DNA of 64,000 nucleotides, taken from Paraburkholderia caballeronis (GTDB lineage: Bacteria; Pseudomonadota; Gammaproteobacteria; Burkholderiales; Burkholderiaceae). Below, one piece after another: positions 1,701 to 21,619 of the stretch. A program made the translations under genes and the position numbers. The stretch covers positions 1,860,001 through 1,924,000 of the forward strand of contig NZ_FNSR01000001.1 in assembly GCF_900104845.1 (NCBI RefSeq), written 5' to 3'. Each line of letters starts with the position of its first letter. Position 1 is the first letter of the stretch. The notes below the pieces were generated by a model, which did not search any database, was not told where the DNA came from, and saw only the letters and a program-made list of their open reading frames with translations.

Positions 1701-1726
1701 AGGAAATGGAAAAGGTCCAACTCGTT

Positions 1727-1742
1727 TAAAATCACGATTTTA
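1727..1742. promoter_or_regulatory. Palindromic double -10 region between smpB and ratA
   Basis: TAAAATC-AC-GATTTTA is a perfect dyad that gives a TAAAAT -10-like hexamer on each strand: 1727-1732 towards ratA and 1737-1742 towards smpB. On the smpB side it is preceded by TGC, which makes an extended -10. No convincing -35 hexamer is visible on either side. Confidence 0.5.
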
Positions 1743-1801
1743 GCAAAGCGGGCGTCCAAAAGCCCGCTGTGCTTCCACTCCTGCAACGCGTTGCGCAGCT
1801 T

Positions 1802-2574: not shown

Positions 2575-2694
2575 GCGGGACGGACGTCGTTGGCCGGCCG
2601 GCGGCATCTTCGGCGCCGGACGCACCGCCGCATGCGATGCCGGGGGGTCCGGTGGTCGCGCTGTGTCGCGCGATGCTCCGTTCGGCCCCGCTGC

Positions 2695-3726: not shown

Positions 3727-3898
3727 GTGTTTCGTGCCTCTGGATCGCGATGAATGGCGCACAGCTTAAGCGGTGACGGGGCGGTGCGTCTTGTTTAATC
3801 CTGCAGCGGCGGCGGACTGCCCGAAAATCGGGCCGGACAGCCTGCCGAAAGCGCCTGGGAATTTTTCACGAATCGCCGCTAAGCCGCTGTTCGGACAC

Positions 3899-3927
3899 GT
3901 GAAATCCAGGGAGGTATCGCGTATAAT
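3899..3927 (+). promoter_or_regulatory. Likely sigma-70 promoter of guaB
   Basis: A perfect TATAAT lies at 3922-3927, and GTGAAA at 3899-3904 could act as a weak -35 with 17-bp spacing. The predicted transcript would start about 20 bases before the guaB ATG, leaving a short leader with a TAGGA ribosome site. Confidence 0.6.
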
Positions 3928-3953
3928 CTGCTTTTGCGCCCATAGGATTTGCC

Positions 3954-5414
3954 ATGCGTCTGATCCAGAAAGCACTCACGTTCGATGACGTGCTCCTCGT
4001 CCCGGCCTTCTCCGACGTTCTGCCGCGCGACACCAGCCTGAAGACCCGGCTGACCCGCAATATCTCCCTGAACATTCCGCTCGTGTCCGCCGCGATGGAT
4101 ACGGTCACCGAAGGCCGTCTCGCGATCGCGATGGCGCAGCAGGGCGGTGTCGGCATCGTCCACAAGAACCTCACGCCGGCCGAGCAGGCGCGCGAGGTCG
4201 CGAAGGTCAAGCGCTTCGAATCCGGCGTCGTGCGCGACCCGATCACCGTGCCGCCGCAGATGAAGGTGCGCGACGTGATGGCGCTGTCGCAGCAGCATGG
4301 CATTTCCGGCTTTCCGGTCGTCGAGGGCGCGCAACTGATCGGCATCGTCACGAACCGCGACCTGCGTTTCGAAACGCGTCTCGACGAGCCGGTCCGCTCG
4401 ATCATGACGCCGCGCGAGCGGCTCGTCACCGTGAAGGAAGGCACGCCGCTCACCGAGGCGAAGGCGCTGATGCACAGCCACCGCCTGGAGCGCGTGCTGG
4501 TCGTCAACGACGCGTTCGAACTGCGCGGCCTGATGACGGTGAAGGACATCACGAAGCAGACCGAACACCCGGCCGCGTGCAAGGACGAGCACGGCAAGCT
4601 GCGCGCGGGCGCGGCGGTCGGCGTCGGTCCCGACAACGAGGAGCGCGTCGAACTGCTGGTGCAGGCGGGCGTCGACGTGATCGTCGTCGATACCGCGCAC
4701 GGCCACAGCAAGGGCGTGCTCGAACGCGTGCAGTGGGTGAAGCGCAACTTCCCGCACGTCGAGGTGATCGGCGGCAATATCGCGACCGCCGACGCCGCGA
4801 AGGCGCTCGTCGAATACGGCGCGGACGGCGTGAAGGTCGGCATCGGCCCGGGTTCGATCTGCACGACGCGGATCGTCGCCGGCGTCGGCGTCCCGCAGAT
4901 CAGCGCGATCGCTAACGTGTCCGACGCGCTGCGCGGCACCGGCGTGCCGGTGATCGCGGACGGCGGCATCCGCTATTCGGGCGACGTCAGCAAGGCGCTC
5001 GCAGCCGGCGCGAACGCGGTGATGATGGGCAGCATGCTCGCGGGCACCGAAGAGTCGCCGGGCGACGTGTTCCTGTATCAAGGCCGCCAGTACAAGGCGT
5101 ATCGCGGCATGGGTTCGGTCGGCGCGATGAAGGACGGCGCCGCGGACCGCTACTTCCAGGACAACTCCGCGAACATCGACAAGCTCGTGCCGGAAGGCAT
5201 CGAAGGGCGCGTCGCGTACAAGGGCTCGGTCAACGCGATCCTGTTCCAGTTGATCGGCGGCGTGCGCGCGAGCATGGGTTACTGCGGCTGCGGCACGATC
5301 GACGAAATGCACGAGAAGGCCTCGTTCGTTGAAATCACGTCGGCGGGGATGCGCGAATCGCACGTCCACGACGTGCAGATCACGAAGGAAGCGCCGAACT
5401 ATCACGTGGACTGA
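3954..5414 (+). CDS. guaB: Inosine-5'-monophosphate dehydrogenase
   Basis: IMP dehydrogenase oxidises IMP to XMP with NAD+, the first committed step to GMP. The 486-residue product has the full family layout: a TIM barrel interrupted by two CBS domains (about residues 94-205) that usually bind purine nucleotides. The active-site loop G-P-G-S-I-C-T-T-R carries the catalytic Cys at residue 303, and [10 protein letters not shown] binds the IMP phosphate. The length matches bacterial enzymes. guaB is followed by a small membrane-protein gene and guaA, so both enzymes of GMP synthesis from IMP are encoded together. Confidence 0.98.
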
Positions 5415-5420
5415 GGTCTG

Positions 5421-6113
5421 ATGAAGCCGCTGCTGCGCGTTGTACTGATTGTCGATGCGTTGTTCCTGCTGGTTTTCGGGGTGCTGTTCCTGCTGACCCC
5501 GTGGGCTTCGCTGTACGACGCGCTGCAACTGGTGCGGCCGCAGCCAACGCTCATCGGCCAGGCGTTCGGCTTCGTGCTGATCGGCCTCGGTTGGCTCGCC
5601 GCGCATGCGGCGTTCGACGGCGCGCTCACGTCGCCGATCGGCAAGGTCGTCGGCCACGTCAACTGGATCGCCGGCGTGCTGATCCTCGTGTGGCTGATCG
5701 GCCTGCATACGCCGCCGATGACCGGCTTCGGCGAACTCGTCGCCGGCGCGCTCGGCGCGTGGCTGATCGTGCTGGGACTCGGCGGCGTGCGCCTCGCGCG
5801 CGCGGTGCGCCGGCGCGACAAGGTGGCTGCGATGGAAACCGCGGCGGCGCAACGCGACGCGCGGAGCGCAACCGTGGTGACGCCGGACCGGCGCGAACCG
5901 GTCAATTACGCGACGCCGGGTTACGCAGCCGGACCGTGTGTCGAAGCCGGGGCGCCGGCGAAACCGGTCGCGGAAGCGGCAACACGTCCGGCTGTGGTCG
6001 CGGCGCCGCCGTCCGCCGGCACGACCGCGGCGACTTCGGCCGACACGATCGAAGCGCGCAATGCGGCTCGCGACGAAGCGGCCGGATCGACGAAGCCGCC
6101 GTTTCATGGCTGA
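5421..6113 (+). CDS. Small membrane protein of unknown function between guaB and guaA
   Basis: This is a 230-residue protein with four predicted membrane helices in the first 125 residues, then a basic stretch (R-L-A-R-A-V-R-R-R-D-K) and a 100-residue Ala/Pro/Thr-rich, probably disordered tail. It begins six bases after the guaB stop, so it is probably cotranscribed with guaB. No function is recognised. The tail composition suggests rapid divergence, and the membrane part is the only clearly structured portion. Confidence 0.7.
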   Translation: MKPLLRVVLIVDALFLLVFGVLFLLTPWASLYDALQLVRPQPTLIGQAFGFVLIGLGWLAAHAAFDGALTSPIGKVVGHVNWIAGVLILVWLIGLHTPPMTGFGELVAGALGAWLIVLGLGGVRLARAVRRRDKVAAMETAAAQRDARSATVVTPDRREPVNYATPGYAAGPCVEAGAPAKPVAEAATRPAVVAAPPSAGTTAATSADTIEARNAARDEAAGSTKPPFHG

Positions 6114-6246
6114 GCGCCGCAACGTCCGCCCGCGCCGACCGGCACCCCAGGACCGCGCACGCAACATACGCTGGACTCCGAATTCACGCCGCGCACGATG
6201 CGCGGCTTTCTGTATCCATTCCTTTAATTAGATTCCGCCCGCTGCC

Positions 6247-7830
6247 ATGCACGACAAGATCCTCATCCTCGATTTCGGCTCGCAAGTCACCCAGTTGATC
6301 GCGCGCCGCGTGCGCGAGGCGCACGTGTACTCGGAAATCCATCCGTACGACGTCGACGACGCGTTCGTCCGCGACTTCGCGCCGAAGGGCATCATCCTGT
6401 CTGGCGGCCCGAGTTCCGTCACCGAGACCGATACGCCGCGCGCGCCGCAGGCCGTGTTCGAACTCGGCGTGCCGGTGCTCGGCATTTGCTACGGGATGCA
6501 GACGATGGCCGAGCAGCTCGGCGGCAAGGTCGACGGCGGTCATCTGCGCGAGTTCGGTTACGCGGAAGTGCGCGCGCGCAACCATACGAGTTTCCTCGAA
6601 GGCATCGAGGACTTCCGCACGCCGGAAGGCCACGGGATGCTGAAGGTGTGGATGAGCCACGGCGACAAGGTCATTGAGATGCCGGAAGGCTTCAAGCTGA
6701 TGGCGTCGACCGAGTCGTGCCCGATCGCCGCGATGGCGGACGACGCGCGTCATTTCTACGGCCTGCAATGGCACCCGGAAGTCACGCATACCGTGCAGGG
6801 CCGCGCGATGCTCGAACGCTTCGTGCTCGGCATCTGCGGCGCGAAGGCCGACTGGGAGATGGGCCACTACATCGACGAGGCCGTCGAGAACATCCGTCGC
6901 CAGGTCGGCAGCGAGCACGTGATTCTCGGACTGTCAGGCGGCGTCGATTCGTCGGTCGCGGCCGCGCTGCTGCATCGCGCGATCGGCGATCAACTGACCT
7001 GCGTATTCGTCGATCACGGGCTGCTGCGCCTGAACGAAGCCGAGCAGGTGATGGCGACGTTCGCCGACCATCTCGGCGTGAAAGTGATTCACGTCGACGC
7101 GAGCGAGGCGTTCCTGTCGAAGCTCGCGGGCGTCACCGATCCGGAGGCGAAGCGCAAGATCATCGGCGCGGAATTCGTCGAGGTGTTCCAGGCCGAGGCC
7201 GCGAAGCTGACCGATGCGAAGTGGCTTGCGCAGGGGACGATCTATCCGGACGTGATCGAATCGGCGGGCAAGGGCAAGAAGGCCGCGCAGACGATCAAGA
7301 GCCATCACAACGTCGGCGGTTTGCCGGAGACGCTGAACCTGAAGCTGCTGGAGCCGCTGCGCGAGCTGTTCAAGGACGAGGTGCGCGAACTGGGCGTGAA
7401 ACTCGGGCTGCCGCACGAGATGGTGTATCGCCATCCGTTCCCGGGGCCGGGCCTCGGCGTGCGGATTCTCGGCGAGGTGAAGCGCGAGTTCGCGGACCTG
7501 CTGCGTCGCGCGGATGCGATTTTCATCGAGACGCTGCGCAACACGATCGACAAGGAGACCGGCAAGTCGTGGTACGACCTGACGAGCCAGGCGTTCGCGG
7601 TGTTCCTGCCGGTAAAGAGCGTGGGGGTGATGGGGGATGGGCGGACTTATGAATATGTGGTTGCGCTGCGCGCGGTGCAGACGCTCGATTTCATGACCGC
7701 GCATTGGGCGCATCTGCCGCATGAACTGCTTGGGCAAGTGTCGAACCGGATTATTAACGAAGTGCGTGGGATTAATCGCGTCGTTTATGACATCTCGGGG
7801 AAGCCGCCGGCGACGATTGAGTGGGAGTGA
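6247..7830 (+). CDS. guaA: GMP synthase (glutamine-hydrolysing)
   Basis: GMP synthase converts XMP to GMP using ATP and glutamine. The 527-residue protein has an N-terminal class I glutamine amidotransferase domain (nucleophile Cys81 in G-I-C-Y-G-M-Q; His/Glu in Q-W-H-P-E-V). An ATP pyrophosphatase domain with the PP-loop L-S-G-G-V-D-S-S-V and the C-terminal dimerisation domain ending P-A-T-I-E-W-E follow. The last 200 or so bases use more A/T-ending and GGG codons than the rest of the gene. The 3' end of guaA is a known integration site for genomic islands, and one starts directly after it here. Confidence 0.98.
7812..7825 (+). other. Candidate attL core in the guaA 3' end
   Basis: GACGATTGAGTGGG at the guaA 3' end matches GACAATCGAGTGGG at 20393-20406 in 12 of 14 positions. 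This would be the left crossover region of the island. It is an inference from one short imperfect match plus position. Confidence 0.4.
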
Positions 7831-8418
7831 GGGGTGAAAAATATCCTTATAAATCAACAACTTACTGCGTGTTTTGCACGTGCAAGTTGATGAAATATAG
7901 CCCGGTGATCCACCTCTAAACTATTGATTAAAAAGGGTAATCGTCTTTTTGATCCTCTCGAAGTCGATGGTTGCGAAGCACTGAACTCGACGGTATTGGC
8001 GACGGTAGAAATAGCGCGCTCAGCCTAGGCCCAATCTAGGCTAACCGCCATACCGTCTGCCGATACCGTGCGACACGGTATGCTGCGGTCAAAAAAGTCA
8101 GGTTTCATGCGGGTCTGCGGGCAGGTGTACGTCTTGTGGTTGTGACGGCATTTGTCTCTTGCCGGTCGTCGTGGTTTCCTTGGTTTTGGATAGATTAGGG
8201 TGCCATGTCGCTGCGTACAAGCTGGCAAGAGGCGTTGCGCAGTTTTTCGGCCGGTTTACCGGCCGTTTTCATGTGGCACATGTAGGCGGCCGGGGCCTGG
8301 GACCGCATGAGACAGAATGCGACCATGGGCCAAGCGGCCTGGTGCTCAGGGTGAAGCGGAAATCTGTAGGTTTCGCGATTGATGACGGCAACCGGCCGTC
8401 TCGATTCAGGAAATCAAT
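7831..8418. other. Left island end: intergenic region with integrase arm-like repeats
   Basis: No convincing gene lies here. The stretch holds four exact ATACCGT copies: 7990-7996 (minus), 8050-8056 (plus), 8063-8069 (plus) and 8075-8081 (minus). It also contains a terminator-like hairpin at 8248-8269. The same heptamer is repeated at the other end of the island, as expected for arm sites split by integration. The open frames crossing it lack ribosome sites and family resemblance. Confidence 0.5.
8248..8269 (+). terminator. Rho-independent terminator-like hairpin
   Basis: An 8-bp perfect stem (CGGCCGGT / ACCGGCCG) with a two-base loop is followed by TTTT. It lies between guaA and the integrase gene and could keep guaA transcription out of the island. 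Confidence 0.55.
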
Positions 8419-8990
8419 ATGCTTACAGACTTCACCCTGCGGAACCTCAAGCCTCGCGCGACCCTTTACAAAGTCGCTGACCGAGATGGGATGTACGTGG
8501 CCATCTCCCCGACAGGGTCCATCTCCTTCCGCTACGACTACAGCATCAACGGCCGGCGTGAAACGCTGACCCTCGGCCGCTATGGCTTCGGCGGCATTTC
8601 GCTTGCCGCTGCACGGGATAAGCTGTCAGCCGCCAAGCGGCTGGTGCGCGATGGCATCTCCCCAGCCATCCAGAAACAGCGCGAGAAAGCCCGTGGGCCG
8701 GAGATCAAGACCTTCGGTGATCACGCTGCTAATTGGCTCTACGGAGCGACTATGGCCCCTACGACTCGGGCAATGCGCAAGAGCGTGCTGGATCGCGACA
8801 TCCTACCGATTTTCAAGAAACGCCTTTTGAGCGAAGTTCAAACGGAAGATTTGCGTGCGCTATGCCTGCGCGTGAAGGGGCGAGGAGCTCCCACGGTGGC
8901 GCTCAACATCCGCGAAATCATCAAGCTGATCTACGGCTACGCGAACCTTCATGGAGAGAAGGTGAGCAATCCTGACCTGCGGCGGGATTT
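8419..8990 (+). pseudogene. Tyrosine-type integrase, truncated by an IS element
   Basis: The first 190 codons encode the N-terminal part of a phage/island integrase. An Arm-DNA-bind (DUF4102-like) domain at about residues 1-90 (L-T-D-F-T-L-R-N-L-K at the start, T-L-G-R-Y-G-F-G-G-I-S-L-A-A-A-R) is followed by the beginning of the SAM-like core-binding domain. The frame then runs into the IS at 8991. The catalytic domain with the R-H-R-Y residues is missing, and no remainder was found beyond the far end of the IS, so this is a deletion and not a simple interruption. The ATG at 8419 follows an AGGAAATC ribosome-site-like sequence. The island can no longer excise with its own integrase. Confidence 0.85.
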
Positions 8991-8999
8991 TGTAGCCAG

Positions 9000-9839
9000 T
9001 CAGGCAGTGAGTCGCATGTCGATATTATCGGACTCCAGCCAGGCTCGACGGACCGTGGCCGGAGGTTGGTAACGATGGGCACTATGCGGCCGCCTCTCGT
9101 TGTAGAACTGGCGCCATTGCTCGATGAGCATTTTGGCCTCGGCGCGGCTGCGGAACCATTCGCGATTCAGCAGTTCGTCACGCAGTTTGCCGTTGAAGCT
9201 TTCGACGAAGCCATTCTGCCAGGGGCTGCCCGGCGTGATGAAGGCCGGGCCAATCGAGGCGTCACGCAGCCAGCGCATGACCCGCGCGGCGGTAAATTCC
9301 GCGCCGTTGTCCGACCGGATGAATGCCGGCTTGCCATACAGCCGCATCAGCCTCGACAGCACCAGAATCACGTCCTGCGAACGCAGGCTGGCACCGACCT
9401 CGATTGCCAGGCATTCCCGGGTGTACTCGTCGATCACGCACAGCATTTTCAAGACACGGCCGTCGACCAGTTGATCGTGGACGAAGTCGTAACTCCAGAC
9501 CGAATTGGGCTTTGTCGCGCCAGGCAGGCGGATATCGCTGCCGCAGCGCCGCCGGCGCGGCCGCCGCTTCGGGATGTTCAGCTTCAGCGCACGCCACATC
9601 CGGCGCACGCGCGATTCGCCCAGCGACAGCCACGCCGAGATACGGCGATACCCAAAGCGCGGCACTTCCTGGGACGCCGCGATCAACTGCTCCTCCAGAA
9701 GCCGGTCCTTCTCCGGCTGTCTGGGCGTATAGGCCGGCACCCGGCGACTCAGCCCCAGGTAACGACATGCCTTGCGTTGTGACAGCCCCCGGCGGGTCAG
9801 GACTTCCAGCGCTTCGCGCCGGCCCGTCGGGGTGCTCAT
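9000..9839 (-). CDS. IS3-family transposase OrfB (DDE integrase domain)
   Basis: This is a 279-residue transposase subunit. An HTH_21-like region (about residues 40-95) is followed by an rve integrase core with the catalytic triad Asp118 (S-Y-D-F-V-H-D), Asp177 (R-S-D-N-G-A-E-F) and Glu213 ([13 protein letters not shown]). It is probably made mainly as an OrfAB fusion by -1 frameshifting at the A-run where orfA ends. The ATG of orfB overlaps the orfA stop. The gene looks intact. Confidence 0.92.
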
Positions 9840-10099
9840 TTTTTTCGGCTGAACTCCTTCAGCCCGTCGATCACCAGCAGTTGCTCGGCAATCAGGCGCT
9901 TGAGCCGATCGTTTTCCGATTCAAGCTCTTTGAGACGCCGGGCTTCAGCGACATCCATGCCGCCGAACCTGTTTCGCCAGCGGTAGAACGTCTGTTCCGT
10001 GATGTTGTGCCGTTTGCACAGATCCTTCACCGCCTCCTCGCGGCTCTCGGCTTCCCGCAGGATGCGGATGATCTGTTCGTCGGTGTGGCGCTTCTTCAT
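9836..10099 (-). CDS. IS3-family transposase OrfA
   Basis: This is an 87-residue protein with an N-terminal HTH_Tnp_1 helix-turn-helix ([17 protein letters not shown]) and a leucine-zipper-like coil ([16 protein letters not shown]). It binds the IS ends and is fused to OrfB by frameshift. The gene ends CGA-AAA-AAA-TGA, a run of seven A that is a classic -1 slippery site, with the orfB ATG inside it. The ribosome site AAGGAGAA precedes the start. Confidence 0.92.
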
Positions 10100-10297
10100 C
10101 GAGTTCTCCTTGCCTACAGGATAAGAGAACTCACTTGCCGTTTGGCTACATGATCCGTCTCAGGTCATGTTGTCATCGTTTTTCGGAATTCCTCACTAAA
10201 AATAATAATCTTTAGTTGTCCGTAATAGATTTTCATAGCATGCAGGTTAGCTTGAAAGCTCTGGAAACCAGATTGGCTCACGCTGGTGCAGCCGCTA

Positions 10298-11344
10298 TTA
10301 AGGCGTTGGCTCGCCGTCTAAATCGCCAGTGGATCCAGCCTTGATGTTTATGGCACCAGCATGGAGTTGTTCAGTGCCTAATGCCTCCTGAGGCAGCCAC
10401 GTGCCAGCAGACCAAATTGCTTCTAGTTTTGTGGCCAGCTCTGCGCCGAGCCAAGCAGCTGCCAGTCCGGCTGCATAGGTTGCACACTCTGGCTTTTCAC
10501 GCCGCACGCCGTTCGCAAGCAACCAGCGGTACAACGGGAGTGCCGCAGAAACGGTCGGATAGCCTGGCTCGACGGAGCGGTTGAAGTCCACGGGAATCGA
10601 TAAGCCCTTCGGGTCCAGGTCGCCGAAGTATTCCGCTGAAGAAGCTCCTGTTTCCTGCATCGCTTGGTGCAACGCTCGCCCAGTGAGCCTGAAGTTTTCA
10701 CCTCCGCCATAGATGACCGCCGTGTATCGTCGCGCGGTCTCGTTCCATTCGGCGAAGCTCCAGTACGTGTTGTGGTTTTCGACAACGAGCACGGATTTTC
10801 CAGGCGCATCAACCTTGCGATAGGGCAGCGGCTGGGGTACCCGGAAGCAACCGATGACGGAGAGTGGAAGCCGACCGCCAAAGAGAAAGTCCTCGGCAGA
10901 CATGCTGTCGAGCCGCTTCTCGTCGCCGAAGATTTCCAAGGAACGTTCCTTGATCGGAACCGAGGAGAAAGCCCCTCGGCGTCGGAGCAGGAAGTCATTG
11001 ATGGGCCGTAGCGCTGACAACTGCGATGGCCTCAACTCCGGCCAGAACCCTAGCTCCGGGGCCCAGGTCACGTCGGCATGGTTTACAGAAACCTTGGGGC
11101 GAGGCGAGCTCTTCAATGTGATCCAAAGTGGAAGAGCGGGCGAGCCGGTCTGTTCCCAACTTCTGGCAGCAGGTAGTGAGATGGCGCCGTCAGCTTCCAG
11201 CTCTTTCAGCGCCCTCAGTAGCATCACACCGCGGTCTGGGCTGTTCTGGACATCTGGGTACAGCGAGAAGTAGTGTCGACGCAGTTCGTCGAGCGGCACA
11301 CGCTTGCGCGGCGACGACAGCAGCGCTTCAAGAAACTCGCTCAA
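10298..11344 (-). CDS. jetD: JetD-like TOPRIM nuclease subunit of a Wadjet-type system
   Basis: This is a 348-residue protein with an N-terminal winged-helix/arm region of the DUF3322 type and a C-terminal TOPRIM domain of the DUF2220 / topoisomerase VI A type. The metal-binding residues are visible: Glu189 in V-L-V-V-E-N and Asp242/Asp244 in Y-F-G-D-L-D-P-K-G. In Wadjet systems JetD cleaves plasmid DNA after the JetABC motor has extruded it. The start is taken as TTG at 11342-11344, which overlaps the jetC stop as TTGA and has GAGGAG eight bases upstream inside jetC. A longer open frame reaching 11542 lies within jetC and has no ribosome site. It is the last gene of the operon. Confidence 0.8.
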   Translation of the reverse strand: MSEFLEALLSSPRKRVPLDELRRHYFSLYPDVQNSPDRGVMLLRALKELEADGAISLPAARSWEQTGSPALPLWITLKSSPRPKVSVNHADVTWAPELGFWPELRPSQLSALRPINDFLLRRRGAFSSVPIKERSLEIFGDEKRLDSMSAEDFLFGGRLPLSVIGCFRVPQPLPYRKVDAPGKSVLVVENHNTYWSFAEWNETARRYTAVIYGGGENFRLTGRALHQAMQETGASSAEYFGDLDPKGLSIPVDFNRSVEPGYPTVSAALPLYRWLLANGVRREKPECATYAAGLAAAWLGAELATKLEAIWSAGTWLPQEALGTEQLHAGAINIKAGSTGDLDGEPTP

Positions 11345-14300
11345 GCCGTGAACTCCTCGGGTACGTCGTTGAGCTTCAGGTTCGCGAACTCGAGGTGCCA
11401 GCGTCTCGTCTTGCTGTTCTGTCCTGCACGGCGCAGGCGGATGAATCGCTGAAACTCGCCGAGAGCGTTGAAGTCCTGGAGTGCCGTGGCGAATATCAAC
11501 TGGACGTCCATGGCCTCGGCCAGCAGCCGTTGGGCGCGCCACATGGCGGGGCTGGTGGCCTTCGCGAACGGGTTGTCGAGGATAAGGGGGCCGCCGGCGA
11601 TGCGATGTACCTGCGCGTGGTTCTCAGCCCGCAACTGGTTGATGACCAGGTACAGGAACATCGCCATGACAACGCCTTCGCCACCAGAGTTCGAAACCCG
11701 CTCAACCGGTACGTACTGCTCTGTCTCCTCGATGGACATCTTCAGGACTTGCAGTCCCAGTGGACGCCCATAAACGCGCGCCACGGCGTCGGCGATGAGG
11801 TCTGTACCGCGCGGGGGGAACACGTTCGTATCAACCAACGTGTCGAGGTAGGCGCTGAGGGTTTGGCGTCGCGTCTCGACTGGGACCGTGCCGAAGTTTG
11901 CCCGCATCTTTAGGACTTGCTTGCCACCGACGTAGGGGGCACCCACTGGCACTGACTTGTCCTTGCTCGTCGCGCGATTGAGCGTCGTGATGGCTGAGCG
12001 GACGACGGCAAGTACCTCCTCGACACAGGCATCGAAGTCAGCTTGCATCGACTGTAGCGTTGCCTCGGTTGTCGCGATGCGATCGTCCAGATGCTCCAGG
12101 AGCCGTTTCGCGTCCGTACACGCGGCACCGAACTCGTTGGCGACCATCTGCTGCGCGACATCGGGGTCGACCTCGCGGAACGATTGCTCCGATGCAGCCG
12201 CTTTGACGAGGTCGAAGGTAGCGCGGGCCTTCGTCTGCAGATTGCTGACGCCTTGGTTTTTCCCCGTGTAGTCCTTCAGCAGCGCGTTGACTTGGTTGCT
12301 GGCGTCGGCTTCGAGAACAAGGCTGTCGGGGTCCGGCACATCCAAGGTCATTCCCACTTGGGCACCGATTTCCGCTGCGATGAGCATAGGATCGGGCCTG
12401 TCTTCAAATCCCATGCTGCTGCGCAGCAGCGCCTCAATCTTTCCGTCGGCCTCCGCGGCCGCGCGTTTCCGATTGGCTCGGTCCACGGCCTGGTTCGCGG
12501 CGTCGTTGGCCACACGCATCCGTTCCAACGCTGCGTTCACGCGGTTCTCGGCCTCTGCCATGAGCGCGGACAGGGCATCTAGGTTCAAAGCCTCGTGAGC
12601 GGGTACTGCGGGGCCGAGGTCCGTTTTATTCGAGTCAAACCACTTCTTTGACTCGCCGTTTACGACCTGCAGATTCGAGGCGGAGTTTACCTGCGCTGGC
12701 TTGGCCTCTTCCAGCGCAGTCTCAACGTTGGCCAACGCCTCTTCATGGTTCATGTTCAGGAAGGGAACAAGGTCCGCCATCTGGACCCCCTTGAATTCAC
12801 GGGTGAACTCCTTGGCCTTGTTCTCGCGCCGTTTTCGAGCATCTTCCAGTTTGTGCGCTAATACCCCCAGTCGATCCCTTTCTTCGGCCAGATAGGCCGC
12901 TTCTGCATCGCTGTAGATGCGGCGCAACGTCTCTACAGGCCGCGGGTTCTGCAACAGTTGTTCGTGAGCCGGGTAGTCCTTGTCATAGTGAGCAACGCCC
13001 GCACGCTCTTCGCCCGCGACCTTGAGTTCATGGTCAGTGCTCACGCGCAACCCATGATCGCGGTCGTGCTCACCCTGCAGTCGCTCAAGGCCCTCATCGG
13101 CTGCGGATTTGCTTTCCTGTGCTGCGATGATGCCTTGCGCTATCTCTTCTAGTCGATGGACGCGCTCCGCATGGCCGACTTCGTGTTCGTTCTGGAACGT
13201 GAGAACTGCTGCGGAAGACAGAAGTGCAGCTTGTCGTCTCGCATCGGCGGTCTGGGCTTGCAGCTCCAGCTCTTGTGCCTTCTCATCTAGCCCAAGCGCG
13301 AGCGATTCGAGGGACTCCGCGCGTGCTGTCGCTGCTGCTGCGTCTTCTTCGAGGGTTACCTTTTCGGCTCGTGCCTGTCCAAGTTTTCCGTCGCCGAATT
13401 CTTTCGCATACGTATCAAGCTCGTGAATGGCCTTCAGCGTTTGGTCGTGGCGCTGCCGATATGCGGCCCGGCGCTCGTTTTCATCGGCGACGCGGAGTTC
13501 GAGGTTCGAGCCCAGCTTGGCAGCAGCTTCGACGTTGAAGGCCGAATCGTCCTCGGCAGGAACGACCAGACGCTCCGACGGTTGCGCTGCGGGCTCAAGG
13601 GTTGCCACTGACACCACCACGGGACGCGCAGGCCGCCGTGCCTCCCAGGCGACGGCCCTGGCCTTGTCAAGTTCCGTGGATGCCACGGAGACGCCGAGGA
13701 AGCGGGCGGGGTCACTGACGACGAGCGCCCGGGCCTTGGCGGTATCCGGCAGGGCTCGTGAGATGTATTCGTTATAGGCTTTGGCCGAGCGCACTCCTGC
13801 CTGTAGAAGCGTCTCGACGACGAATGCAACGTCGATGCTGTAGCCAGCAACCCCAGTTTCATCAATAGCCTGCTTAGTGGCGCGCAGTTCCGCCAAGCGA
13901 ACGTCTCCCAGAGACATTTGTCTTGCCGACTCAGCGACGATCTCGCGTAGGCGGGTAGGCAAGGCCGCGGACAATGGGTCGACGCGGTCGGATTCGGCAG
14001 CGTTCAGAAGGGCAGGTAGTTGTGCCAGGCGCTCGAGCTCGGCTTCCCCTCGTGCGATGAACTCGCCGAGTGTCCGTGCCTCGCCGACCAATTTGGCTGC
14101 GCGGATGTTCTCCGCTGCAGTGATCTGTCGATGCTCGCGTGCCTCTTTGGCGCAGCGTTGCTGCGATGCACGATGCAGGTCACGCTCGGAAGCCGCGGTT
14201 GCAGCTTCAGAATTCAGTCGTTCAAGCGCCTCTGCAGTTGTCTCGTCGGGTCCGAGAAAGGTCCCATCGACTTCAAGAGCTTGCCTACGACGCGCGTAGG

Positions 14301-15747
14301 AGTCCTCGGCCGCTTGAAGTTTCGAGCGTTCTCCTACCTGACGGAGTTCGTCAGATTCGGCTTGCATTCGTTGCTTGCGAAGGGTTGTGCGTGCCTCCTC
14401 CCGCGCGGTAGCTCGCTCATCGAGCATTTGGAGCACTGCCTTCAGTCGCTGTTCTTCGTTGAACAGTGCTCGGCGCAACAGCGCCCCTTGAATCTCGACG
14501 TGGTCCTTCGTCGGTTTGAGATTCGCGCGCTCGGCTTCGGCCAGTGCGTCGAGCTCCTTGAGCTCTTCGTCGATGCCGACAATTTCCTTCTGGAGCCGGG
14601 CGGCCCGGATGAGCCGTTCGTCTCGCTCCAGGTCTCTTACCCGGCCATCGGCAGCCTCCTTGCGCGCCTTTGCCTGCGCGCTCCGCTTCTGATGCCAAGC
14701 CCAGGTGACCGTCGCCTGCTCCTTCGTATGGAACGCCGAGTCCGCAAGCGCAGCCGAAGCCAGTTGTCGCTGGGTCTGCTCGAATTCCGCCTCTCGGTCA
14801 TGGTCGAGGTGCAAGGAGACGGCGCGGGCCTGCAGTGCCTGGACCATCTGAGCGCCCCGAATCAACATTGAGCGCTGTGCAGCCAGCGTCTCGAGGTACA
14901 GCTGGGCCGCTTCGGCGAAAGCGTTCAGCGACGCCCGGAACTGGGTCAGCTCATCACGACGCCTCTGGAACTGAGGCTTGCGGCGATGCTTTTCGCACAC
15001 CGCGACTACCAGCTTGCGTGCTTCGTCGGCTTTCGTCGTGTCGCTGGTCAGGTACAGAAACTTGCGCAGGAATTCGCCTTCCGTCTTGAAGTCGAGGAAA
15101 CCCGTGTCGAAACCGCCTTCCTGGGCCGAGAAGTTGACCTGCATGCGCAGCATATCCAGGTCAATGAGGCGCTCGTCTCTCAGATGCCGCTGCCACTCCG
15201 CTTGGCGATTATGGCTGATGAAAACGTCACCAGGGTAGTTCTTCTGCTGGGTATGTAACCAGCGAGAGAACTCCTGCATGGAGGACGGCGTGGGCTGTGC
15301 CAGACCTGGGGCGGGGATGTCGATCAGGCCAAGGTCGGCGTGCTCCTCGAATGAAAAGAACATGCGGTCGACTTCTGGTGGCTCGGTGTGTGACCTTACC
15401 GCGACTGCCTGACCGGTCACCAGGCGGTAGGGGTTGCCTCCCGCCGTTCTGGACGGCATGAGCCATTCAACGATGATGAAACCGGGTGTGCCATCGTGAG
15501 TGAAGTACTGAGAGAACGTGTTGTGCTTGCTCTGGATGTGCTTGAGAAACCTCTCTTGAGCGGTCTCGAAGCACGAGAACACAAGCCCAATGAGCGTGGT
15601 CTTGCCTCCGCCATTCTCCAAGTTGATGAGCGTGTCGGTGGGTTGGCCGCTGTCTGGGTCGGTCAGCTCGAAGGTCGTCCCTTCGTACCATGCGGTGCGA
15701 TAGCCACAGTTACCCAGGTGTATGCGGGAAATTTTCTGCATGGTCAT
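11341..15747 (-). CDS. jetC: JetC-like SMC/MukB-type ATPase of a Wadjet-type system
   Basis: This is a 1468-residue SMC-like protein. The Walker A motif E-N-G-G-G-K-T-T-L lies at residues 44-52. Long charged coiled coils run at about 260-610 and 745-1170 and flank a non-coiled, hinge-like region at about 620-735. The ABC signature S-N-S-G-G-E-G ends at residue 1358, and the Walker B strand P-L-I-L-D-N-P-F is at 1387-1394. The residue after the Walker B Asp is Asn1392, where SMC ATPases normally carry the catalytic Glu. JetC dimers with JetA and JetB form the loop-extruding motor that recognises circular plasmids. The gene overlaps jetB by ATGA and jetD by TTGA. It is longer than a typical type I JetC, and the subtype could not be fixed by eye. 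Confidence 0.85.
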   Translation of the reverse strand: MTMQKISRIHLGNCGYRTAWYEGTTFELTDPDSGQPTDTLINLENGGGKTTLIGLVFSCFETAQERFLKHIQSKHNTFSQYFTHDGTPGFIIVEWLMPSRTAGGNPYRLVTGQAVAVRSHTEPPEVDRMFFSFEEHADLGLIDIPAPGLAQPTPSSMQEFSRWLHTQQKNYPGDVFISHNRQAEWQRHLRDERLIDLDMLRMQVNFSAQEGGFDTGFLDFKTEGEFLRKFLYLTSDTTKADEARKLVVAVCEKHRRKPQFQRRRDELTQFRASLNAFAEAAQLYLETLAAQRSMLIRGAQMVQALQARAVSLHLDHDREAEFEQTQRQLASAALADSAFHTKEQATVTWAWHQKRSAQAKARKEAADGRVRDLERDERLIRAARLQKEIVGIDEELKELDALAEAERANLKPTKDHVEIQGALLRRALFNEEQRLKAVLQMLDERATAREEARTTLRKQRMQAESDELRQVGERSKLQAAEDSYARRRQALEVDGTFLGPDETTAEALERLNSEAATAASERDLHRASQQRCAKEAREHRQITAAENIRAAKLVGEARTLGEFIARGEAELERLAQLPALLNAAESDRVDPLSAALPTRLREIVAESARQMSLGDVRLAELRATKQAIDETGVAGYSIDVAFVVETLLQAGVRSAKAYNEYISRALPDTAKARALVVSDPARFLGVSVASTELDKARAVAWEARRPARPVVVSVATLEPAAQPSERLVVPAEDDSAFNVEAAAKLGSNLELRVADENERRAAYRQRHDQTLKAIHELDTYAKEFGDGKLGQARAEKVTLEEDAAAATARAESLESLALGLDEKAQELELQAQTADARRQAALLSSAAVLTFQNEHEVGHAERVHRLEEIAQGIIAAQESKSAADEGLERLQGEHDRDHGLRVSTDHELKVAGEERAGVAHYDKDYPAHEQLLQNPRPVETLRRIYSDAEAAYLAEERDRLGVLAHKLEDARKRRENKAKEFTREFKGVQMADLVPFLNMNHEEALANVETALEEAKPAQVNSASNLQVVNGESKKWFDSNKTDLGPAVPAHEALNLDALSALMAEAENRVNAALERMRVANDAANQAVDRANRKRAAAEADGKIEALLRSSMGFEDRPDPMLIAAEIGAQVGMTLDVPDPDSLVLEADASNQVNALLKDYTGKNQGVSNLQTKARATFDLVKAAASEQSFREVDPDVAQQMVANEFGAACTDAKRLLEHLDDRIATTEATLQSMQADFDACVEEVLAVVRSAITTLNRATSKDKSVPVGAPYVGGKQVLKMRANFGTVPVETRRQTLSAYLDTLVDTNVFPPRGTDLIADAVARVYGRPLGLQVLKMSIEETEQYVPVERVSNSGGEGVVMAMFLYLVINQLRAENHAQVHRIAGGPLILDNPFAKATSPAMWRAQRLLAEAMDVQLIFATALQDFNALGEFQRFIRLRRAGQNSKTRRWHLEFANLKLNDVPEEFTA

Positions 15748-16475
15748 ACCGCCTTGCGCTCGGTCGTAGCCAGTTGCGCCATCTCGTAGAGTCGCCGCAA
15801 CGCCAGCTCTCGCAACTGCACACGTAACCGGAAGGTGGGCGTGTAGGTCGCAGCCGCCTCGTCTTCCGCGTCGCGGTCAAGCCGAACTAGGCCGTTCTGC
15901 GCCATCTGGTTCAGCGCAATCTTGACGACGCCGACGACCGAGGCGTGCGACGCTCGCTGACCGGACGGAATTGCTACTGGCAGTGCTGAAATCGTCTCCC
16001 AACCAGGAGCGAGCTCAGGTGGCACGTCCGGCGGAAGGTCGGATGTCTCCTTCAGGCGTCGCGCCAGTGCATAGAGCGTGTCGCGGCAGGTGGCCACAGA
16101 CGCCGGGGGCGGGGAGTAGTTGTCGTCGTCCAGTCCATCAGTCGTTGGGAAGAAGACCGCGGCGATGGCGATGTGAGCAAGCGCGAGTGCGGCCTTCTGG
16201 TCTGGAGTCATGCCGCTGCGGATATCCGTGAGACGCACTGCGAAGCGGCTGTCCTTGGAGGCCGGAACTACAATGAGCCCACGCTGCTCGCTCAAGTCGA
16301 GAATCTGCAGTTCCATGCCGGCCGCAATATCCTCGACGTGCCGTCTGAACGTCGGGTCCGCCCTGCATAGGGCAAGTAGTTCGCGGTACTCCGAGTCGTT
16401 TATAGGCGACAATGTCGTGTGCAGCGCCTTGTAGGTCAGGCGCGCAGCGTTGCGCACGGTAGGTTCTGCGGTCAT
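15744..16475 (-). CDS. jetB: JetB-like (MukE/MksE-type) subunit
   Basis: This is a 243-residue protein placed between the JetA-like and JetC-like genes with ATGA overlaps on both sides, the position of JetB/MksE. It looks like a tandem winged-helix protein: helices early, the beta-rich segment R-G-L-I-V-V-P-A-S-K-D-S-R-F-A-V-R-L, and a second helical half with V-K-I-A-L-N-Q-M-A-Q-N-G-L-V-R-L. JetB normally binds the kleisin JetA and helps it bridge the SMC heads. A longer frame from 16619 overlaps jetA and was not used. The call depends mainly on operon position and fold-like pattern. Confidence 0.72.
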   Translation of the reverse strand: MTAEPTVRNAARLTYKALHTTLSPINDSEYRELLALCRADPTFRRHVEDIAAGMELQILDLSEQRGLIVVPASKDSRFAVRLTDIRSGMTPDQKAALALAHIAIAAVFFPTTDGLDDDNYSPPPASVATCRDTLYALARRLKETSDLPPDVPPELAPGWETISALPVAIPSGQRASHASVVGVVKIALNQMAQNGLVRLDRDAEDEAAATYTPTFRLRVQLRELALRRLYEMAQLATTERKAV

Positions 16476-18016
16476 TCGGACTCTCCCTGGGGAACGAACT
16501 CGAGCGCACTGCCCTGAGCGATGTCGAGATGGAAGGTGTCTCCCGTGAGTTCGACGTTCACGTTCTTGAACTCGTTCTCGGACCGCGCGAACGAGCGGAA
16601 CAGGATGAGAACGAGGCACCGCCGCGTCGTCCGGTCCAGGCCTTCGTCTTCGGCAGCATCCAGCAGTTGGTCGATACGCAGCCGTTGGCCGGTGGAGAAC
16701 TTGCCTGCCAGCCAGTCGTTGGCACGCTGCACGAGTTCCTTTGAAAATTGGTCTGGCAGGGGGGCGAGCTTTTCAATCGAACCTGGGTCAGTCTCGACCT
16801 CTGGGTCTTCCCCTCGCTGCTCCAGTAGCAGGGCGAACGCCGAGTTCAAGTCATACACCCTCGGCCACACCGGTGGGTACAGCGCACTGATGAAGGCATC
16901 CGCCTCTGCCGAGAGTACTCGGGTCGGAAGGTTGACGAGTTGCGGAAGGAGTTGCGGCTCAAGGTCCGGGAGACCGGTGGGCCTGCGTGCGCGGAAGACC
17001 GCGCGCTGCGCCTCGATGAAACGCTCGGGCGCTACGTTGATGTCAGTGACAAGCTGCAGTCGAATGAGGCTGGCGCTACGGATGGTTTCCTTCAACTCTA
17101 CGAGACTCTCGCGCGTCTTCGGCTCATCGGCGCCAAGCAGGGCTTCGCCAACGGCTTCCTCCATGCGGGCGTCTTCGGCTTGGCGCTGACGAACGTGCGT
17201 CCGTGCCTCGTCAAGCCGCCCGGCCATGTCGCGGCTCCAGTTGACGCTGCCTGGCGCTCGATAAGCTTGATAGAGCCGGTCACGAATCAGCTGGCGGTAC
17301 TCGATGGAGTACTTCCGTGCTCGTCGGGCAATCTCGACAGCTGCTTCGAATCGGCCGCGGTGCACGAGCAGGTCGAGCATCTTCTCCATCAGCTCCTGTG
17401 AGTCCTCCGGAGCGAGATCGAGCATTCCCAGGTATACGAGGTAGCCTTCGGCGGTGGGACGGTAACGGTAAACGTCATCAGCGTCTGGTTCGAAGCGGAC
17501 CAGTCGGTATCGGAACGACTTGATCGTGCCTGTAGACGCGTCGAAGAACTCCGCTGTGAACTCCCTGTGGTTGTTAGCCTTGTTGTCGAGCGCGTCGAGG
17601 ACAACTTCCGCGATGCGGCGCGCTTGAGAAGACGTGAGGCCAGGCTTCATGCGGCTGGCGATGTACCCCAGGTGAACCACAACCTCGACCGAGGTACTGC
17701 CGCTGGAGACCGTCGTCGCCTCCATCATCAGGTCAAGGGCAGACAACGCGAGATAGTGGGTGTCGATGCCATGGAACAGCGTCCTATCCGCGCTGCCTTC
17801 ATCGCCAAGCATCGTCTTGTAGCGCTCGAGCTGGAAGATGGGCCGCAGGAGCAACAGGTTGCGCTGCTGACGCGATAGGTCAAGCAGGTCTGTGGAACCG
17901 CCATCCAATTCCACGCTGCCTTCGGAGGATGCCAGCGGCTCAGGATCCGCCGGCACTATCTTGTGCGACGCAAGGTCCTGTTCTGAGTCCAACGATGGCG
18001 TCTCCTGGTGCGGCAC
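16472..18016 (-). CDS. jetA: JetA-like (MukF/MksF-type kleisin) subunit
   Basis: This is a 514-residue, mostly helical acidic protein, the first gene of the four-gene operon. After an acidic, probably flexible N-terminus of about 50 residues come a winged-helix-like region, a helical middle and a C-terminal domain ending L-T-G-D-T-F-H-L-D-I-A-Q-G-S-A-L-E-F-V-P. This order fits a MukF-like kleisin that links the two SMC heads. The GTG at 18014-18016 is chosen as start because AGGAGG lies five bases upstream (18022-18027); an in-frame GTG at 18058 has none. Sequence resemblance to a named Pfam family was not evident by eye, so the name rests on context. Confidence 0.72.
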   Translation of the reverse strand: MPHQETPSLDSEQDLASHKIVPADPEPLASSEGSVELDGGSTDLLDLSRQQRNLLLLRPIFQLERYKTMLGDEGSADRTLFHGIDTHYLALSALDLMMEATTVSSGSTSVEVVVHLGYIASRMKPGLTSSQARRIAEVVLDALDNKANNHREFTAEFFDASTGTIKSFRYRLVRFEPDADDVYRYRPTAEGYLVYLGMLDLAPEDSQELMEKMLDLLVHRGRFEAAVEIARRARKYSIEYRQLIRDRLYQAYRAPGSVNWSRDMAGRLDEARTHVRQRQAEDARMEEAVGEALLGADEPKTRESLVELKETIRSASLIRLQLVTDINVAPERFIEAQRAVFRARRPTGLPDLEPQLLPQLVNLPTRVLSAEADAFISALYPPVWPRVYDLNSAFALLLEQRGEDPEVETDPGSIEKLAPLPDQFSKELVQRANDWLAGKFSTGQRLRIDQLLDAAEDEGLDRTTRRCLVLILFRSFARSENEFKNVNVELTGDTFHLDIAQGSALEFVPQGESE

Positions 18017-18337
18017 AGCTCCCTCCTGAGAAAAGGTGTACGAACAAAAAGAAGACACGCTTACTTTCGATGCTCATGGACGGTGCGCGGAGTGCTTTCG
18101 TATCAGGCTTGGTAAAGAGAGGGGATACCCGGAAGTTCGGTGCGCTACCCTCGATCACTGTGCCAGAGCGGTTTCTGGGGCATTCATGCGCAGCCCATGA
18201 AGTGCGGAAGCAAATCTAGAATGTATTCCCATCGTTTAAGTTTGGAATGTTGAAACCGTTTTTAAGTCACATCAGAAAGGGTTTAGTCTTTATTTCTTGA
18301 CTTGGGTTCATTGAAAAAGCATACTGAAGCCGTTTCT
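18017..18337. promoter_or_regulatory. Divergent control region between jetA and hipB
   Basis: This AT-richer stretch separates the jet operon and the hipBA-like pair and must hold promoters for both. It contains the related segments CGTTTAAG (about 18232) and CGTTTTTAAG (about 18257), and GAAACCG at 18252 matches, in inverse, CGGTTTC-like segments inside the start of hipB. These could be HipB operator half-sites, but none is a clean palindrome. Confidence 0.35.
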
Positions 18338-18706
18338 ATGAGAATTTTAGATGGTTTCGGTATGCCTCGTCCACTTCAGTTGAATCAGACTGCTCCGTTC
18401 GCTGTGAAGAACGGGGCTCAGCGCATCGGCGAGCGGCTGACAATGGCCCGCAAGCGTCGTCGGTTGACCCTGCGCGAGCTGGCGTCCAAAGCAGGCATCA
18501 GCTACGACACCGCACGCGCCGTGGAGGCGGGTAACCTGCAAACCGGCTTGGGGGCCTACTTGGCTATGCTGTGGGCGATGGGTCTGGAATCCGAGATTCA
18601 GATGTTTGCCGATCCTGAACGCGATGAGGAAGGCAAGCAACTGGAGCTTACACGTCTGCCGCAACGGGTTCGCCATTCCAAGGAGCGGTTCGATGGCGAG
18701 TTCTGA
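18338..18706 (+). CDS. HipB-like helix-turn-helix antitoxin/regulator
   Basis: This is a 122-residue protein with one Cro/C1-type HTH at about residues 34-88 (I-G-E-R-L-T-M-A-R-K-R-R-R-L-T-L-R-E-L-A, then A-G-I-S-Y-D-T-A-R-A-V-E). It overlaps hipA by 14 bases, the normal antitoxin-toxin arrangement. In HipBA systems the HTH protein binds the operator, represses the operon and holds HipA inactive. The start is uncertain: ATG 18338 is chosen, while ATG 18362 and TTG 18302 are alternatives and none has a strong ribosome site. A roughly 30-residue N-terminal extension precedes the HTH. Confidence 0.8.
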   Translation: MRILDGFGMPRPLQLNQTAPFAVKNGAQRIGERLTMARKRRRLTLRELASKAGISYDTARAVEAGNLQTGLGAYLAMLWAMGLESEIQMFADPERDEEGKQLELTRLPQRVRHSKERFDGEF

Positions 18707-19976
18707 TCAACGTGCCTACGTCTACCTGCAATTGCCGCAGTCATTGGAGGTCGTGACAGCGGGGTTCTATGAGTTGGACCTCCCGCAGGGAGTACCCACA
18801 GGCTCGTTCGTCTACAACCCGGCTTACCTGCAGCGTGCCGATGCCGTCCCGCTGGATCCGTATGAGCTGCCCTTGGCGCCGCGCCGTGTGCAGACGGTGA
18901 AACTCAAGGGGATCTTCGGTCCTTTGCGTGACGCGTCGCCTGATGCCTGGGGCCGTCGCATCATCGAAAAGCACACCGGGCGCACCGACCTCACCGAGAT
19001 CGACTACTTGCTGCATTCGCCGGAGGATCGCGCAGGTGCCTTGTCTTTCGGACGTGACAAGGTTCCGCCCGCACCCATTCGCAAGTTCAATCAGGTCATT
19101 CAACTGGAGGCGCTGCTCGAGGTAGCCGAGCAGTTCATGGATGACGAGGCCGCGGGCAAGCCTGGCGTTCCGGAGCAGATGTTCGAGCTCTTGCAGCCAG
19201 GCACTTCAATGGGCGGTGCCCGACCGAAGAACGTGGTCGAAGATGGCGAGGGACTATGGCTCGCCAAGTTCCCAGATAAAGGTGACAAGTGGAACAACGC
19301 GCGTGTTGAAGGCGCAATGCTCGTGTTGGCACGGGAGTGCGGTCTGCACGTTGCTAGGCATCGTATCGAAACCGTCGCCGGCAAGGACGTGCTGCTCGTG
19401 CAGCGTTTCGACCGCACGCTGACCGCTGACGGGTACTTGCGCCATCGCATGGTGAGCGGCTTGACTGCGCTGGGCGCCGAGGACTCGCATGGAGACCGGG
19501 CTAAGTGGTCGTACCTGTTGCTGGCCGATGAGCTGCGGCGACGAAGCGCACGCTCCGCTCAGGACCTTGAAGAGTTGTTTCGGCGGATGGTGTTCAACGC
19601 GCTCATTTCGAATACGGATGACCATCCCCGCAATCATGCGTTGATTGCGCCGACGGCCAAGTGGGAGTTGTCACCGGCTTACGACCTGACGCCCAACCCG
19701 CTGACCAGCGTCGAGAAGCGCGATCTGGCGATGACCTGCGGAGCCTACAACCGCTATGCAAACCGTACCAATCTGCTCTCGCAACATGGGCAATTCAGGC
19801 TCTCGCTTGAACGCGCGAGAGCCATCGTCGATCAGATTCAACAAGTCGTGACCGCACGATGGCATGCAACTCTGCGTCAGCAGGGGGCGACTCTCGTGGA
19901 TTGTGACAAGCTGGAGGGCGCATTTAACTACCCAGGGTTTGAGTTGGACCCTACTGTGGTGCTCGCGGGTCAGTAG
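18693..19976 (+). CDS. HipA-like serine/threonine kinase toxin
   Basis: This is a 427-residue protein with the HipA N-subdomain, the G-T-S-M-G-G-A-R-P-K segment (Gly-rich ATP loop region), and the kinase catalytic signature S-N-T-D-D-H-P-R-N-H followed by the Mg-binding S-P-A-Y-D-L-T-P. E. coli HipA phosphorylates glutamyl-tRNA synthetase and causes growth arrest. The substrate here is unknown. The ATG at 18693 has AAGGAG seven bases upstream. The gene lies divergent from the jet operon inside the island, so it may act as an addiction module stabilising it or as part of the defence cargo. Confidence 0.9.
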   Translation: MASSDQRAYVYLQLPQSLEVVTAGFYELDLPQGVPTGSFVYNPAYLQRADAVPLDPYELPLAPRRVQTVKLKGIFGPLRDASPDAWGRRIIEKHTGRTDLTEIDYLLHSPEDRAGALSFGRDKVPPAPIRKFNQVIQLEALLEVAEQFMDDEAAGKPGVPEQMFELLQPGTSMGGARPKNVVEDGEGLWLAKFPDKGDKWNNARVEGAMLVLARECGLHVARHRIETVAGKDVLLVQRFDRTLTADGYLRHRMVSGLTALGAEDSHGDRAKWSYLLLADELRRRSARSAQDLEELFRRMVFNALISNTDDHPRNHALIAPTAKWELSPAYDLTPNPLTSVEKRDLAMTCGAYNRYANRTNLLSQHGQFRLSLERARAIVDQIQQVVTARWHATLRQQGATLVDCDKLEGAFNYPGFELDPTVVLAGQ

Positions 19977-20659: not shown

Positions 20660-21619
20660 ATGGCCGACATCAAGCTTTACAAACTGGCAGACGGAGCAGC
20701 AGAGGAACTGGACGGGGAGGCCTCCGATCTGGAGAAGCCGTTGCAGACGCTGTTCGAGAATAATCTGGAGCCGATGCTAGGCATTCGCTTTCTGGCAAGC
20801 GAATATCAGACCGGCAAGACCCATGGCGGTCGAATAGATTCATTGGGACTGGATGAAAACAACGGTCCGGTCATCCTCGAATACAAGCGATCCGTTGGCG
20901 AAAACGTCATCAATCAGGGCTTGTTTTATCTGGACTGGCTGATGGATCATCAGGCCGAGTTCAAGCTTCTTGTCATGGAAAAACTGGGTCACGCCGCCGC
21001 CGCCCAGATCGACTGGAGCGTTCCGCGCCTGCTTTGCATCGCCGCCGATTTCACGAAATACGACGCTCACGCGGTACAGCAGATCAATCGCAACGTCGAA
21101 TTGATTCGTTATCGCCGTTTTGGCGTCGACCTGCTGCTGCTCGAACTGGTCAATGCGATCAGCGTAAGCAAGCCAAAAAGCAGTCCAAAGCCGAATAAAA
21201 CGGAGCCGGGGCCAACACTGGCGACGGCGGTCAAGACGTCGGCGTCTAACGGCGACAAGAGTTATGCTGAATGGCTCGAACAGCTTTCAGCCCCGATGCT
21301 CGAACTGCTGACTTCCTTGGAGGACTTCATCGCATCTCTCGGCGATGACGTCCAGCGCAAGGAACTCAAGCTGTACGTTGCATTCAGGCGGCTGAAGAAC
21401 TTTGCGTCGATCGTGCCGCAGAAGAACCGGCTGCTGCTGTTCCTGCATCTCAACCCGGACACCTTGAATCCGTTGCCCGCCAACGCCCGCGACGCGCGCA
21501 AGTTCGGCCATTGGGGCACCGGGGATCTCGAACTCTCGGTGGCCAGCTTTTCCGACCTGGAACAGGTGAAGGCGTTGATCCTCAGCGCCTACGAAGGGCG
21601 CGCGCACGGCAAGTTATAG
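20660..21619 (+). CDS. PD-(D/E)XK-nuclease-like protein with DUF5655 domain
   Basis: This is a 319-residue protein. The N-terminal half carries a nuclease-like core: F-E-N-N-L-E-P near residue 32-38, G-G-R-I-D-S-L-G with the probable metal-binding Asp, and V-I-L-E-Y-K-R giving the E-X-K. This is the arrangement seen in RecB/NucS-type PD-(D/E)XK folds. The C-terminal third (about residues 200-319) resembles DUF5655, a small domain found in many uncharacterised proteins. It may act on DNA, but no activity is established. It stands alone outside the putative attR, so it may be an independent acquisition. Confidence 0.7.
   Translation: MADIKLYKLADGAAEELDGEASDLEKPLQTLFENNLEPMLGIRFLASEYQTGKTHGGRIDSLGLDENNGPVILEYKRSVGENVINQGLFYLDWLMDHQAEFKLLVMEKLGHAAAAQIDWSVPRLLCIAADFTKYDAHAVQQINRNVELIRYRRFGVDLLLLELVNAISVSKPKSSPKPNKTEPGPTLATAVKTSASNGDKSYAEWLEQLSAPMLELLTSLEDFIASLGDDVQRKELKLYVAFRRLKNFASIVPQKNRLLLFLHLNPDTLNPLPANARDARKFGHWGTGDLELSVASFSDLEQVKALILSAYEGRAHGKL

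Follow-up and report, generated by a model that had tools for sequence, protein, structure and literature searches.

Four minus-strand genes lie at 10298-18016 of the window, that is, of the whole stretch of 64,000 nucleotides of Paraburkholderia caballeronis DNA that was analysed, and make up a jetABCD operon (Table 1). Each gene overlaps the next by four bases, as the first-pass annotation had described, with the junctions ATGA at 16472-16475 and at 15744-15747, and TTGA at 11341-11344. The start sites were refined: JetA begins at the GTG at 18016, behind AGGAGGG (the list of open reading frames begins at 18058), JetB at the ATG at 16475 (243 residues vs. 291 in the raw frame) and JetD at the TTG at 11344 (348 vs. 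414 residues). The ATG at 15747 gives JetC 1468 residues, in agreement with the large SMC protein noted at first. The four frames run without stop or frameshift, all show a coding-type pattern of GC content by codon position, and JetC and JetA are each present in a single genomic copy; the four-gene operon is confirmed as real and intact.

Table 1. Features of the jetABCD operon and its surroundings (window coordinates).
Feature	Position	Strand	Remarks
guaA	6247..7830	+	Core gene, 3' end borders the island; Pfam GMP_synt_C, GATase
Tyrosine integrase, 5' part	8419..8990	+	Retains arm and middle domains alone; interrupted by IS3; end approximate
IS3-family element	8985..10156	-	Transposase ORFs 9000-9839 and 9836-10099
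jetD	10298..11344	-	348 aa, TTG start; predicted TOPRIM nuclease, E189, D242, D244
jetC	11341..15747	-	1468 aa; SMC-like ATPase, head-arm-hinge-arm-head
JetC D1425	11473..11475	-	Acidic residue in the loop after the next strand
JetC Walker B LILDNP	11569..11586	-	Residues 1388-1393; D1391, then N1392 replacing the catalytic Glu
JetC Walker A NGGGKTT	15595..15615	-	Residues 45-51; alignment of 22 JetC sequences
jetB	15744..16475	-	243 aa; JetB3-like; presumed KITE/MukE-like subunit
jetA	16472..18016	-	514 aa, GTG start; PADLOC JetA3; presumed kleisin subunit
hipB-like HTH gene	18302..18706	+	Divergent from jetA; below the families' cut-offs
hipA-like kinase gene	18606..19976	+	HipA_C 159.9 bits

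The operon lies in an island where GC content is 0.58-0.62 over 8-22 kb, against 0.63-0.71 outside, and has risen again to 0.68 in the bin that covers 22-24 kb. The gene at its left border, guaA, serves as a site where islands integrate. The IS3 element has 28-nt end repeats (8985-9012 and 10129-10156) that are 75% complementary, and the part of the integrase that it leaves carries no matched catalytic domain, which probably makes the island immobile. A search for att repeats that would mark the right end of the island, as 24-mers with at least 19 identities shared by the end of guaA and the segment at 19.9-21.0 kb, found none. A DUF5655 gene at 20660-21619 shows a weak NucS_C match and is rare in the genus, where 7 of 141 genomes, its own included, carry it. 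The operon or a remnant of it also borders guaA in four other genomes, namely L069, L010 (judged the same as L071), L011 (judged the same as L070) and L023, and in no other case among 31 loci, within the stretches available; papers on islands mention guaA (e.g., PMC7775301).

A hipBA pair flanks jetA in divergent orientation in the window, as it does in L069, L010 and L011. The HipA proteins of these three relatives are 93-94% alike, and that of the window is 32-35% like them, despite JetA identities of 86-92% between the window and the same three loci, a difference that suggests an exchange of the hipBA module in place. In more remote loci scanned for the purpose, the divergent neighbour of jetA encodes a WYL regulator in seven of nine upstream frames (L013, L015, L016, L017, L021, L068 and L072), the nine being a selection made in part by length (near 290 aa); the remaining two are L008 (no domain) and L009 (Shedu), and the frames of L006 (on the strand of jetA) and of L020 (HNH_4) were not counted as divergent neighbours. 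The type III Wadjet operon of L007 adjoins a 2614-aa protein (1554-9398 of that locus) that matches the reverse-transcriptase defence model RT_UG29 with 2121 bits. WYL regulators, Shedu and RT_UG29 are the defence-type neighbours seen in relatives.

Regarding classification, JetA, JetC and JetD match the PADLOC models of Wadjet type III, with 797.6 bits to JetA3 (PDLC00569), 2260.9 bits to JetC3 over residues 3-1465 (PDLC00578) and 378.9 bits to JetD3 (PDLC00594). JetB reaches a weak 19 bits to JetB3 (PDLC00573), yet profile comparison by hhalign pairs it with the JetB of four actinobacterial type III operons at a probability of 99.7, the values for JetA and JetD being 99.7 and 99.9. The type I and type II models of PADLOC match JetD alone, at 25 bits or less; with no type I model for JetA, JetB or JetC among the matches, the operon falls outside Wadjet type I. 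Against type I profiles, whose JetA, JetB and JetD were chosen by gene position next to JetC1 matches and did not come from E. coli GF4-3, P. aeruginosa PA14 or C. glutamicum MksBEFG, hhalign gave no match for JetA (probability 0.3) or JetB (4.8), and for JetD aligned the TOPRIM core alone (78.4, or 92.2 with a broader profile). Comparison with a single type II operon gave no match, JetD included, and NCBIfam at its cut-offs matched none of the four Jet proteins. With homologues of JetA3, JetB3, JetC3 and JetD3 in the order A-B-C-D on one strand, the operon is, judged by sequence, a Wadjet type III system. As for JetB, that of the E. coli locus L072 has no PADLOC JetB3 match at E 0.01; as the JetB of both operons lies outside the JetB3 models, automatic annotation may overlook type III operons that are complete.

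The candidate nuclease, JetD, matches Pfam JetD_C with 29.2 bits (cut-off 22). Its residues E189, D242 and D244 are invariant in 126/126 aligned type III JetD, mostly near relatives, and the profile alignment puts them in register with the Glu and DxD of type I JetD, the metal site of the Wadjet TOPRIM domain. Changes E236A and D279A drastically impair the nuclease of C. glutamicum MksG (PMC10123090). In an AlphaFold2 model (mean pLDDT 81.9), helix-rich N-terminal domains, candidates for the CAP/arm domains of a Wadjet JetD, are predicted before a core of strand-helix-strand-helix-strand, in which E189 would end the first strand and D242/D244 would follow the third. Against PDB sequences, JetD and JetB gave chance-level matches only, JetC gave none and the JetC head profile only chance-level ones, and JetA gave a 19-bit match to AcrIF14 (E 0.004), which was not believed. 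The JetB model, of low confidence (pLDDT 60.8, pTM 0.37), may be read as two helix-helix-hairpin units. JetA would act as the kleisin and JetB as the KITE (tandem winged-helix) or MukE-like subunit. Across 19 sequences, JetC is well conserved at residues ~1-280, ~561-720 and ~1200-1468 and poorly in between, a pattern that marks the head-arm-hinge-arm-head layout of an SMC protein; its signature motif is NSGGEG.

The first-pass annotation stands in part. The matches to JetA3, JetC3 and JetD3 support its Wadjet (JetABCD) system, the PADLOC placement in type III its less-studied subtype, and the JetD_C match with the register of E189/D242/D244 its JetD-like TOPRIM protein. The epithet "divergent" suits JetB alone, which lies off the PADLOC models, the operon being a typical match within type III; and the overall interpretation holds for the Wadjet kind and the subtype, with the kleisin and MukE-like folds and the activity still presumed.

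Relatives at E<=0.001 numbered 242 for JetA and 896 for JetD, in each case among the 8000 candidates scored, those sharing most words, and 176 for JetB. The system is patchily distributed: it was found in 5/144 genomes of the genus, the window's own included, and in the class sample JetA3 (PDLC00569) occurred in the own genome only (1/369), PDLC00588 in 3/249 (the own genome and two chance-level matches) and PDLC00587 in 0/229, a model that matched nothing anywhere. Fifteen of the 18 loci found via JetA in genome contigs (L006-L023; tblastn) carry jetA to jetD complete, with order and strand preserved, so the set does not recur by chance; the three incomplete ones are L012, whose contig ends in JetC, L020, with A, B, D and only a C-terminal part of JetC, and L023, a Bordetella locus with a JetA fragment only. 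Carriage by viruses was rejected, as the phage collection gave no type III JetC match and two scans of viral contigs no relative; carriage of this operon on plasmids was likewise rejected, megablast finding none. Distant JetC matches occur on eight plasmid records. The type III operon of L072 has a match in 93/5426 complete E. coli genomes, all chromosomal, of which 63/93 cover at least 80% of the query; several of the E. coli copies listed hold an IS3-family transposase within the match. Both E. coli loci, L072 and L091, are distant type III Wadjet systems with a WYL regulator. The SMC layout of JetC would also suit a chromosome-organising operon akin to MukBEF or MksBEF, outside defence, but the presence of JetD with intact metal residues, the patchy distribution, the island setting and the defence neighbours make this very improbable.

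We consider it probable that the locus is a Wadjet type III operon, intact and acquired horizontally, whose products would comprise a JetABC SMC complex and a DNA-cutting JetD; this is the best explanation because of the gene set and order, the type III assignment, the SMC layout, the Walker A and signature motifs, the JetD metal residues and the island setting. Working as in type I, JetABC would be an SMC complex that encircles DNA using ATP, senses unwanted DNA, probably circular and extrachromosomal, hands it over to JetD and releases this TOPRIM nuclease to cut it. Current Wadjet models, drawn from type I, have the complex extrude the whole circle, collide and cut, and type I cleavage needs a working JetC ATPase, as a review has it (PMC10586767). 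Other Wadjet types suggest an anti-plasmid activity for the window operon. The single in-host test of a type III system that was found concerns Cupriavidus necator H16, where deletion is reported to have left electroporation and the loss of an RSF1010 plasmid unchanged under that study's conditions (PMC12645576). In E. coli SMS-3-5 a type III operon, accompanied by a WYL gene, coexists with circular plasmids of 8909, 4074 and 3565 bp; this operon is distant, the JetC of the near-identical L072 sharing 26% identity with that of the window over the 38% matched, and the coexistence, in one strain, proves nothing.

A second reading has the operon regulated, or aimed beyond small plasmids at phage DNA or at conjugative or large elements; it would be switched on through the HipB or WYL regulator next to it and silent in ordinary laboratory conditions. 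The divergent WYL genes in 7/9 of the upstream frames scanned, the hipBA pair at the same place here and in the three relatives at guaA, the silent C. necator deletion (PMC12645576) and the small plasmids of SMS-3-5 all agree with this; the last of these is a single anecdote, however, and plasmids may resist, and on balance we regard such a special regulation or target as rather unlikely.

What stands out here is the Walker B motif of type III JetC, the operon itself being one more type III Wadjet system. The Walker B strand of the window JetC reads GGPLILDNPFAKAT, and Asp-Asn-Pro stands at this place in 28/28 type III JetC C-terminal regions read (the window and 27 loci), several of which are closely related, so that they do not amount to 28 independent events; position 1425 is D in 27 of the 28 and E in one. 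The set spans Betaproteobacteria, Xanthomonas, E. coli, Salmonella, Microvirga, an Acidobacteriaceae contig, a Melainabacteria MAG, Rhodococcus, Streptomyces and Embleya; it leaves out L005, L010 and L011, which repeat L068, L003 and L004, and L012 and L023, where the region is missing. In all six distant loci checked (L061, L063, L064, L065, L068 and L072) JetC3 is the best PADLOC match, with a weak additional LmuB match in L063, L065 and L068, and the JetC of E. coli SMS-3-5 has ADNP with GISDE. Asp-Glu, in turn, is found in 17/17 aligned type I JetC, from 20 loci matched by the JetC1 model (the last few weakly); the ORF filter dropped L041, L054 and L057, and DEAF was found by pattern in L041 and L057, with L054 unread. 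The one type II JetC available (L067) also has DEAF, and searching further for type II added no other full-length JetC. When the heads of types III and I are aligned (hhalign probability 92.7), N1392 falls opposite the Glu of type I VIDEAF with no nearby gap and D1425 opposite a type I lysine, and by eye the spacing from signature to Walker B agrees within two residues. Pfam SbcC_Walker_B matched weakly in 13/18 members. Differences in the D-loop were dropped, since type I varies there too. Type III thus departs from the canonical Walker B, with its Glu after Asp, and membership stands because, to our knowledge, no definition of type III demands that Glu. No published work on the Walker B of type III JetC was found in the open-access literature, by titles and the starts of abstracts; the Asp-Asn motif may already be in print elsewhere.

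With Asn in place of the Walker-B Glu, and an acid in the following loop opposite a type I lysine, type III may hydrolyse ATP differently or poorly: either another acid, for which D1425 is the best candidate, serves in its place, or the complex is a slow ATP switch. Retained hydrolysis with a relocated acid, D1425 being the candidate, is slightly favoured. If JetC self-pairs as in type I, the Asn would sit in both ATP sites. The missing catalytic Glu counts against an ordinary processive motor. It is conceivable, although we put it forward tentatively and at somewhat below an even chance, that type III is mechanistically distinct, having an Asn Walker B and either the acid moved to D1425 or an ATP-gated clamp without processive extrusion. 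A rival reading takes JetABC for an ATP-bound clamp or switch and not a loop extruder, with very slow or no hydrolysis, which licences JetD once per DNA engagement. The D-N-P of 28/28 type III JetC points this way; the engineered E1042Q of C. glutamicum MksB is called a hydrolysis mutant (PMC10123090), LmuB of Lamassu generally has Glu changed to Gln, with low or no hydrolysis suggested, changes of this type slow ABC ATPases drastically according to the same review (PMC10586767), and the negative plasmid results in C. necator would fit (PMC12645576). The invariant acid at 1425, a natural replacement base, and the conservation of Walker A, signature, hinge and heads weigh on the other side, and such a clamp seems to us possible but doubtful.

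Should type III prove mechanistically distinct, it would select its targets on a basis different from the measured extrusion of type I. If its SMC protein uses another residue for ATP hydrolysis, or barely hydrolyses ATP, DNA sensing would be separated from extrusion, which could explain the absent plasmid phenotype of the one tested type III operon that was found. The presence of a distant type III operon on E. coli chromosomes makes the hydrolysis question testable in a model species.

Among known systems, the operon resembles Wadjet type III as defined by PADLOC in gene set, in the order A-B-C-D and in matches that span almost the whole of A, C and D, and differs in its weak JetB match (19 bits) and in having hipBA, not a WYL regulator, adjoining jetA. 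The system of C. necator H16 is called type III by both PADLOC and DefenseFinder (PMC12645576), a likeness by type call; its deletion is the one described as without phenotype under the conditions used in that study (PMC12645576). With Wadjet type I (E. coli GF4-3, P. aeruginosa PA14, C. glutamicum MksBEFG) it shares an SMC ATPase and a TOPRIM JetD, and the JetD core and JetC head of the window align with type I profiles; in contrast, JetA and JetB are not alignable with those of type I, whose JetC has about 1100-1230 aa vs. 1468 and whose Walker B reads Asp-Glu vs. Asp-Asn. Lamassu LmuB is, like JetC, a defence coiled-coil ABC ATPase with the Walker-B Glu replaced, in its case by Gln (PMC10586767), but it is Rad50-like, of about 650 aa, and works with other partners, whereas the JetC of the window has Asn together with a conserved downstream acid.
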